Positions 9,701 to 11,196 of a stretch of 20,213 nt of DNA are shown here, piece after piece (the first letter of the stretch is position 1; each line of letters starts with the position of its first letter). The translations under genes and the position numbers were made by a program. The DNA lies in the IMG/VR virus record IMGVR_UViG_3300025483_000098, positions 1-20,213 of that record; one strand, 5' to 3'. This DNA comes from a virus. The notes beneath the pieces are model-generated. The model searched no databases and was not told the DNA's origin. It saw nothing but the letters and a program-made list of their open reading frames with translations.

Positions 9701-9914
9701 TCAACCACCAAACACTCTTGTGAATAGTAATGTGGTTCAAATATTTGGTATCACATCTCCATCTCCAATTTCTATTAATGGCGGTGAAATGCAAATTAAT
9801 GGTGGACCGTGGGTTACATCGGGTTCAATAAATAATGGTGAGACACTGCGACTTAGAATAACAACTAGCGCATCTCTTGGCACTCCTGTTTCTATTTCAA
9901 TAACAGTCGGATAA
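6717..9914 (+). CDS. Large adhesin-like protein with two glycine-rich (ALK/LTK-like) domains, Ig-like domains and four beta modules, paralog C
   Basis: 1065 residues, coupled to paralog B by TAATG. Order of parts: glycine-rich domain 1 (1-255), Ig-like domain (260-340), glycine-rich domain 2 (348-585), second Ig-like domain (588-675) and the four shared modules (to 1065). Each glycine-rich domain opens with a beta strand and VP/FPSNASN-type turn, has a strand of type ITVYLG or LTFYVG, and then long G-rich runs around a hydrophobic strand (LAVAGGSGG at 142-150; WICNVGGGGGG at 475-485). This layout matches the Gly-rich domain of ALK/LTK receptors. Glycine-rich polyglycine-II folds also form the receptor-binding tip of T4-like gp38 adhesins. 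It is therefore a good candidate for the host-binding tip. No collagen-type G-X-Y periodicity is seen. Confidence 0.82.
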   Translation: MATQTTYEFTTAGTHTFDFPSNASNVSFILRGAKGGNALGATDIRGVLTPSPAQTAPQGQYMTGSLDPAVVGGQTITVYLGDNGNVASNNFGFDGGAAGGSGYYSGGSGGSSGGGETWVTDGGGSGGGGASVLVAVGLGSVLAVAGGSGGCGGAAVDYGGQVPAYNTNLTTNITGAGNGNNGGSGIQSNGGSGGGGGGVPAGAGGGASSSGNHNPGKAGSGGGGYYNNLAVPTCAITAEAFIPNNLNDGYFYITYESGDPPNVQFSSNPAVVVTGGSTTLSWEVTAGDVSDNPTSITLNGVAVAATDTLVVSPTVSTDYTISATGAGGTTTDTIRVIVIASDNGTGAGFTTVYGTGETSDAVPPNVTGYLTIAAARGGSGGSDGNGPGCSGNGGRVGVFELLPTPEGRQLTFYVGTVGNNGASGKPRNKPGGTGGISVAGNGGNGGRDSSSSGWSGSGGGGGGASGVFDIGLNQWICNVGGGGGGGGGSLNQGCSNQPSSSGGSISAGSVGAANGNGGGDAPGDGGGGGGGGGGSFAGSGGGSGQDNSSAGSSGGGGGSNYNNTILSLDSQSTNNNNGYAILSFTIPPTIAYFRANDDSPETDILQGEAVVLSWSTLFNGQETATAAEIDNGVGVVPVGQQFTSIVSPAETTTYTLTASGGGVFAQQTVTVNVTGPDDVSDTFSFSSIQNAELITMYETEIVTISGLGVGVNAFVTNGAELSVNGGAYSSATQTVNNGDTIQVRMESSSLYSTEKESSISVGVTNTTWSVFTKQEPANVPNAFSFNDVDDAPLSTYISSNVVTISGLNVIGTVSTPLSGAESSVNGGPFSTAVKLINNGETLALRVLTSGALGDSVQTGVSVGSGPVVTWNVTNVTTADDNPDFFDFTDKLNMTANTYVTSDILTITGLNVPTAVTVTNGDFRINGGSWVTSGNINVNDTLQLRLLSSTEPGGEVETTVTIGNLPLNQLSDDWKVVTTTAGDIDPDAFSFINQDNQPPNTLVNSNVVQIFGITSPSPISINGGEMQINGGPWVTSGSINNGETLRLRITTSASLGTPVSISITVG
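6813..7400 (+). repeat. Glycine-codon-rich tract 1
   Basis: Dense GGT/GGA codons interrupted by Ser, Ala and Asn codons make a low-complexity direct-repeat tract in the first glycine-rich domain of the 6717-9914 gene. Such tracts can expand or contract by recombination. The complementary strand gives spurious His/Gln-rich open frames. Confidence 0.75.
7764..8471 (+). repeat. Glycine-codon-rich tract 2
   Basis: This second low-complexity tract encodes glycine-rich domain 2. It uses more GGC codons than tract 1, especially around 8150-8175 and 8275-8345, giving local GC peaks unlike the surrounding AT-rich DNA. That may reflect separate origin or slippage-driven expansion. Confidence 0.72.
8475..9911 (+). 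repeat. Shared C-terminal block, copy C
   Basis: This is the third copy of the Ig-like plus four-module block. Module starts read SDTFSF, PNAFSF, PDFFDF and PDAFSF, and the block ends SISITVG. The module order is the same as in copies A and B. Confidence 0.82.
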
Positions 9915-9915
9915 C

Positions 9916-11196
9916 ATGGCATATAATACTTCTTGGACAGTCACTACGTATGATAGTGCTGATAATATCCAACCTGGACATTGGTACAGTGTTAGGAATA
10001 AGAAAGAAGATGGTATGGCTCTAGGAACTGTCATGACTATCTTTAGAGACAAGCAGGGAAATTGGGGTGACCTTAGTGGTTCGTTAGCATCTAGATTCCC
10101 TGGTTGGATTGTCTGTGAAGGTGATACTTTACAAGCGGCAGACTATCCAGATCTGTGGGATGTTATTGGTAACACTTATGGTGGCAACGGCGCTAAAACT
10201 GTCAATGGAAATACCAAAACATATTCGGGATCTTTTAAACTTCCTGACTATAAGAATAGAAGATTACATGGCACTGGAAATGTAGATGGTAATAGAGGAT
10301 CATCACCAACACTCGTAACATATAATGCACCAGACTTAAGTTCCTCTGGTTCTGGTGATGCATTTACTGCTGGTTCTGGTGGAGGAAACTGGTATATTGA
10401 TAAAATTGATGCTCAAGGAGATCCACCAGATGAGCAAGTATATACTGGAACTGGTCAAAGTGATAGTAAATTCTTTAAACTTGGTACTCTCGTAACTACT
10501 GGAGCAGAAGGAATTACTGGAGAAATTAATTATAATATTGTTGGAAATATTCAAGCAACGATTGGACCAGTAAAAGATATTATTGTAAATGTTCCACAAC
10601 ATGATCATGTAATTATTAGTGGACAGGCAGATCAGGTGCCCGTTGGTTGGGTTCCTTGGGGTTCTCCTCCTACTGGTGGTGGATTCTATGGTATTAGTTC
10701 GGGGGAAATCAGGGACTCAACTTATCCTCAGATTGGTTATAATAGTGTTGTTGCTCCTGGTGGAGAGTTCAATGCATCTTTCAATAACTATTGGCCAGGG
10801 GATGTACAAAATAATATCCCTGGTCTTCCTGTAGGTAACAAATATAGTGCTGGTGTTTTGTGTAACAATGTAGATGCAAACGTTAGTGTGTATAACCCAG
10901 GCACACTATTATCTCACTCACATTACATTCAAGAAGGATCTGACTTTGGTGATGGTGCAAACGTATATGGATGGGGAAATAATACTGGTGCAGGGACTGC
11001 AGCAGGTGGTCTTGCTACAAATACAACAACAAATATTAATTTCTCTCAAACCGAACTCGCACTAGCAGCAAATGAAGCAACATTTGCTTTAAACTTATCA
11101 AAACAAGTCATTCCAACACCATCTTTAATCCCACAAGACAACGTTTCCCTATTGACTAAATACTATCGAGTCAAGTATATTATTAAAGCATACTGA
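9916..11196 (+). CDS. Phage tail-collar domain protein, copy 3
   Basis: 426 residues, starting one base after the stop of paralog C. The first ~33 residues (with YNTSWTVTTYDSAD) are an N-terminal extension not found in the other two collar proteins. They resemble the closing Trp strand of the beta modules in the preceding adhesins. The collar domain follows: RFPGWIVCEGD (60-70), YPDLWDVIGNTYGG (77-90) and FKLPDYKNRR (107-116). Two HxH motifs occur, HDH at 229-231 and HSH at 334-336, and the C-terminus ends KYIIKAY as in copy 1. It is probably a short-fibre or tip protein that may attach to or cap the adhesins. Confidence 0.87.
   Translation: MAYNTSWTVTTYDSADNIQPGHWYSVRNKKEDGMALGTVMTIFRDKQGNWGDLSGSLASRFPGWIVCEGDTLQAADYPDLWDVIGNTYGGNGAKTVNGNTKTYSGSFKLPDYKNRRLHGTGNVDGNRGSSPTLVTYNAPDLSSSGSGDAFTAGSGGGNWYIDKIDAQGDPPDEQVYTGTGQSDSKFFKLGTLVTTGAEGITGEINYNIVGNIQATIGPVKDIIVNVPQHDHVIISGQADQVPVGWVPWGSPPTGGGFYGISSGEIRDSTYPQIGYNSVVAPGGEFNASFNNYWPGDVQNNIPGLPVGNKYSAGVLCNNVDANVSVYNPGTLLSHSHYIQEGSDFGDGANVYGWGNNTGAGTAAGGLATNTTTNINFSQTELALAANEATFALNLSKQVIPTPSLIPQDNVSLLTKYYRVKYIIKAY

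Follow-up and report, generated by a model that had tools for sequence, protein, structure and literature searches.

In pili, the N-terminal extension of one subunit closes the next. The adhesins of chaperone-usher pili (FimH, CfaB and relatives) combine a binding domain at the N-terminus with an Ig-like domain at the C-terminus that lacks strand G, and in this respect they resemble the proteins described here. They differ in that the present proteins belong to a phage tail fibre, in which no chaperone or usher was seen, in that one base gene serves several heads, and in that the cut site varies by lineage (after strand A, after strand D or after strand F). Fibres of more than one protein are also found in phage DT57C, whose lateral tail fibres are formed by LtfA, LtfB and LtfC, with LtfC sheets that receive strands from LtfA (PMC10713586). 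In that phage the extension of a sheet takes place at an attachment ring, whereas here a split stalk module would be rebuilt from two proteins, with several heads per base. The cyanophage short tail fibre (phrog_4924; gp12 of S-PM2 and Syn1) shares its modules, its collar domain and its gene place with the locus studied here, but the last module is interrupted in the latter and in 24 relatives. In S-PM2, Syn1 and S-CAM4 one half of a module forms the start of the base gene and its complement the end of the heads, a split on which the annotations are silent. We found no prior description of a split-module joint in the open-access literature on phage tails and cyanophages, donor strands and Ig-like domains.

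In this study, we propose that the collar and the adhesin module parts probably descend from a single short-tail-fibre gene whose last stalk module was severed between strands F and G, and that the products still build this module jointly, the collar strand filling the gap non-covalently. The window, that is, the whole stretch of 20,213 nucleotides that was analysed, is a virus contig from the part of a T4-like cyanophage genome that encodes the tail fibres, and its nearest isolate in the phage collection is Synechococcus phage Sf-CH1b (62%, collar protein compared). Two collar-domain genes (539-1777 and 1777-2649) lie upstream of three head genes, which are followed by the collar, or base, gene; heads and collar gene are all on the plus strand. 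Head 1 (2651..4735; the ATG at 2651 was preferred over a TTG as its start) has a variable N-terminal domain, three whole Ig-like modules and an open module 4. Head 2 (4735..6717) starts in overlap with the stop codon of head 1 (TAATG), and head 3 (6717..9914) has two Gly-rich regions, three whole modules and an open module 4. The collar protein (9916..11196) is the C-terminal part of a cyanophage short tail fibre (gp12-like) and contains the phage tail collar domain PF07484 (1.2e-10; 41.6 bits, above the curated cut-off of 24), with its core at 10099..10203. All three heads match the N-terminal half of phrog_4924 (1e-35 to 2e-37), while the collar matches positions 553-779 at 8e-90; in PHROGs terms, heads and collar are the N-terminal and C-terminal parts of one family of 1022 positions, that of the cyanophage short tail fibre. 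The window departs from the single-gene form of this family in that modules and collar are split at 9912-9916. The Gly-rich, exchangeable N-terminal parts suggest that the heads are the host-facing end, and they are presumed to act as adhesins. Some relatives carry an insert of about 140 residues in the collar domain (L012 9001-10707 and L001 12001-13668) that is absent from the window; the insert looks like a mobile element, and a similar stretch (GGSGSGMRMRITY...) occurs in ACG-2014e (L104 8629-9042), where the collar frame is broken.

A module HMM of about 101 positions, built from complete internal modules, aligns with modules 1-3 of every head from positions 1-3 to positions 100-101. Module 4 begins at position 1 or 2 in all three heads and ends at position 84, with zero residues beyond; in head 1 the four modules cover 1-100, 2-101, 2-101 and 2-84, the last of these reaching the final residue. 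The open modules lie at 4490..4732 in head 1 (positions 2-84, residues 614-694, i-Evalue 6.4e-23), 6472..6714 in head 2 (positions 2-84, residues 580-660, 2.5e-22) and 9666..9911 in head 3 (positions 1-84, residues 984-1065, 7.2e-24), each on the plus strand and each without strand G. The C-termini read ...SVSITIG, ...TMSITIG and ...SISITVG in heads 1 to 3, respectively. The module HMM and the ends of the open reading frames thus confirm what the sequence-only reading had noticed, namely that modules 1-3 are whole and that module 4 stops at TIG or TVG in all three adhesins. It might be expected that a shared partner would make module 4 more alike between heads; a comparison of the modules did not bear this out, since in module 4 the heads do not resemble one another more closely than in modules 1-3.

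The N-terminus of the collar protein, MAYNTSWTVTTYDSADN, resembles the strand that is absent from module 4 of the heads. When a strand-G weight matrix derived from complete modules was scored on the 444 distinct gene N-termini of these loci, the 13 distinct N-termini of type-G collars (those with the F/G cut) took ranks 1 to 13, with 12.2 bits for the window; the remaining N-termini had a mean of -12.7 (s.d. 5.7) and a maximum of 4.8. By these ranks and scores the match of the collar strand is far above chance. The putative donor strand comprises collar residues Y3-Y12 (YNTSWTVTTY; 9922..9951, plus strand). In modules 1-3 of adhesin 1 a Trp follows the terminal Gly of the preceding strand at +6, +7 and +11, and the collar Trp would stand at +7 if the two proteins were joined directly, so that the missing strand is present, as had been claimed, with the right sequence and the right spacing. 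The N-termini of the window's own adhesins scored -0.7, -5.0 and -10.4. The highest of these belongs to head 2, whose look-alike N-terminus MPENVSITWSTSQ was considered as a donor to the preceding head and rejected both on this score and because in L010 an unrelated head replaces head 2 while the upstream end is unchanged.

Across the 13 divergent collars, residues Y3, T5, W7, V9 and T11 are invariant and residues 4, 6, 8 and 10 are variable. Such alternation in the alignment is typical of a strand that buries one of its faces, and it would not be expected to persist in a free tail. Purifying selection on the strand codons is not stronger than elsewhere in the gene, since the remainder of the collar has a pN/pS no higher than the 0.36 of these codons. 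This last result would suit plain fission without function, with a relic strand on the collar and a last head module that is stable or closes by itself, a reading which we regard as improbable; a relic would be expected to lose the buried-face pattern, yet residues 3, 5, 7, 9 and 11 have not changed.

The predicted structures agree with a strand that completes the module. In L011, head and collar are separated by a single in-frame stop, and the two were modelled as one chain with the stop read through as one glycine. In this AlphaFold2 model collar residues 3-11 form strand 185-193, which mirrors strand 85-93 of the complete module 3; most of the module has pLDDT above 90, and the block of residues 181-190 has a pLDDT of 91. 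The chains are linked in cis by one residue and uncut relatives are present in the alignment, both of which favour the fit, and the model therefore speaks for the fit of the strand in cis and not for its entry in trans. When modules 3-4 of head 3 of the window were modelled alone, module 3 was complete and module 4 was left open, lacking strand A and retaining four of the eight residues of strand F. The outcome that would have counted against the sequence-only reading, a module 4 closed without a further strand, thus did not appear, and the predicted openness of the isolated module also argues against a functionless relic. Two features of donor-strand systems are found here, an Ig-like domain without its last strand and, in the cis model only, a partner N-terminus that provides a fitting strand. 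Relatives by sequence in the PDB, pilins included, were found neither for the collar nor, convincingly, for head 2. Foldseek and VIA-align returned generic Ig-like folds only (best Z 8.8), and the fold alignment with the CfaB fusion 3f84 (Z 5.6) lies within background.

The junction itself is short. The stop codon of head 3 (TAA, 9912-9914) is followed by one C and by the collar ATG at 9916, so the collar does start one base past the last adhesin, as first read. The F/G cut falls at the identical residue in 25 loci, the window included, and the distance from stop to start ranges from -1 to +3 bases, through -1 (TAATG), 0 (TAAATG), +1, +2 and +3, so that each of the three relative frames is represented. 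A spacer that drifts between protein ends that stay fixed indicates that the proteins are kept separate and their ends kept complementary. Comparison of the junction DNA across loci showed that the codon of the terminal Gly (GGA, 9909..9911, plus strand) may be the Shine-Dalgarno core of the collar gene, and the conservation of this Gly by itself is weak evidence, because in many loci GGA may also serve translation initiation of the next gene. It could be argued that a programmed frameshift or stop read-through joins the two products in cis and yields a covalent fibre as well, and the closeness of stop and start as well as the lone in-frame stop of L011 would be compatible with it. We consider this very unlikely and have dropped it, for spacing and frame differ between relatives, no conserved slippery site was seen, and heads 1 and 2 precede other heads and not the collar and could not be completed in this way, which applies to two of the three heads of the window. 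An assembly error behind the split is ruled out by its occurrence in independent contigs and in the isolate Sf-CH1b. Elsewhere, the short-tail-fibre frame of L084 is interrupted in comparison with its near relative L083, which may be an error or a real break.

Fused versions, which the sequence-only reading had suggested looking for in related phages, were found. In the uncut loci L033, L036, L037, L040, L043 and L050 the head, four whole modules and the collar lie within one gene, and in every other collar type the module adjoining the collar is whole and continuous with the collar in one gene. L041 is an example of a module joined to the collar without a break ('...TNVTVGSVTKSWSVGTYSSAP...'), its last module continuing into the collar as '...VSTNVTVGSVTKSWSVGTYSSAP...WYSRKNKKEDG'. 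In the collar tree a branch with support of 100/100 separates the F/G collars from all others. The F/G cut seems to be the derived state, because this module is whole wherever the collar is of another type, provided that the tree is not rooted within the split group; rooting the collar tree for the direction of change gave no order of events, the outgroups being too distant. The fission of a once continuous gene is supported by these findings, and strand complementation in trans is suggested by a strand that is kept with one conserved face, that fits in the cis model, and that a module open on its own would need. The two had been put forward as alternatives; both hold, and they are compatible with each other. 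That the fission is clear, and that genes are often split in phages, would also fit a functionless split.

The F/G cut is not the only one in these phages. In type AB (L041, L046, L047 and L073) there are two or three heads, whose last piece is strand A (positions 2-23), and the base gene takes up from position 24. In type DE (S-PM2, S-RIM32, Syn1, S-CAM1, S-CAM4, S-CAM3, S-H9-2, ACG-2014i and many contigs) the heads break off after positions 2-50 and the base gene begins with positions 50-98 (profile comparison, 1.6e-4 and 1.6e-9); this assignment rests on a profile of 57 heads, because single DE heads match the module HMM weakly. Both types cut a different module than type G does, the heads and the downstream gene are again complementary, and each cut type is set apart from the rest by a branch of the collar tree. 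Three separate cut types that all retain exactly complementary pieces are difficult to reconcile with fission without function. A further variant of the split joint may be present in Sf-FR1 (L101 1-2447 and 2915-8476), whose base gene starts mid-module at position 56 and whose heads end differently.

Uncut genomes with a visible upstream border encode a single head, as part of the fused gene, and cut genomes have one to three. Where the head set could be delimited, it numbered three in most loci (the window, L010, L012, S-PM2, S-RIM32, Syn1 and S-H9-2) and two or one in the others; more than three heads were not clearly seen in any of these loci. Sf-CH1b has two head genes, not three, and its last head (L001 7601-12001) has 1466 residues with apparent extra Gly-rich head material. 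Because the loci L027 and L030 are split with a single head, the sharing of a base by several heads cannot be the whole reason for the split.

Head families recur across the cut types. The type-G head of L010 and the type-DE head of S-H9-2 are 67% identical over 112 residues, the N-terminal family of head 2 is also found on the type-DE head of L060 (about 42-45% over 190 aa), and further N-terminal head families link type G with type AB and with uncut genes. The close relatives L009 and L010 differ by a swapped second head. Of the head ends that were typed by pattern, all 146 of 146 (85 DE, 52 G and 9 AB, many of the loci being near-duplicates) have a broken end that fits the base of their own genome. 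Such matching despite exchange would be expected if the heads must physically fit the local base. It also lends support to the view that one collar protein could cap any of the adhesins, all heads of a genome ending alike. In principle the open edges would be sticky, and they might pair mutually or with another fibre protein, by domain swap or at the baseplate, the collar strand being used elsewhere. We think this improbable, somewhat more so than functionless fission, given that head ends always match their own genome's base and that a foreign partner would leave the strand-G sequence of the collar, at the right spacing, unexplained.

Completion of the module in trans, similar to donor-strand complementation in pili, is in our opinion the best explanation. 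In such a scheme the heads would be made separately, each ending in an Ig-like module without strand G; the first ~12 collar residues would close the open module of a head, and the heads would plug non-covalently into one shared base. We infer that the strand is supplied in trans to all three heads and that the arrangement serves to provide several exchangeable host-binding heads per base. More tentatively, and with considerable doubt, split Ig modules could be a general plug-and-socket of T4-like cyanophage fibres, with the cut site as a lineage-specific compatibility key and with a base that is probably trimeric like T4 gp12, so that one fibre carries three different heads. If completion in trans is true, a single attachment site would let one phage present several host-binding heads with no need to duplicate the base, and heads could be swapped between phages while compatibility stays. 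It would also give a function to genes annotated as 'hypothetical' or 'virion structural' in S-PM2, Syn1, S-CAM1 and S-RIM32, and would mean that joints of the donor-strand kind have arisen more than once outside pili, and at different strands.

Downstream of the collar gene, the window contains a run of 2OG-Fe(II) oxygenase-like genes (11205-16330), and annotated relatives such as Sf-CH1b and S-PM2 keep such genes directly downstream as well. At its end (19123-20046) lies a DNA methyltransferase-like ORF with the motif TDPPYYR.
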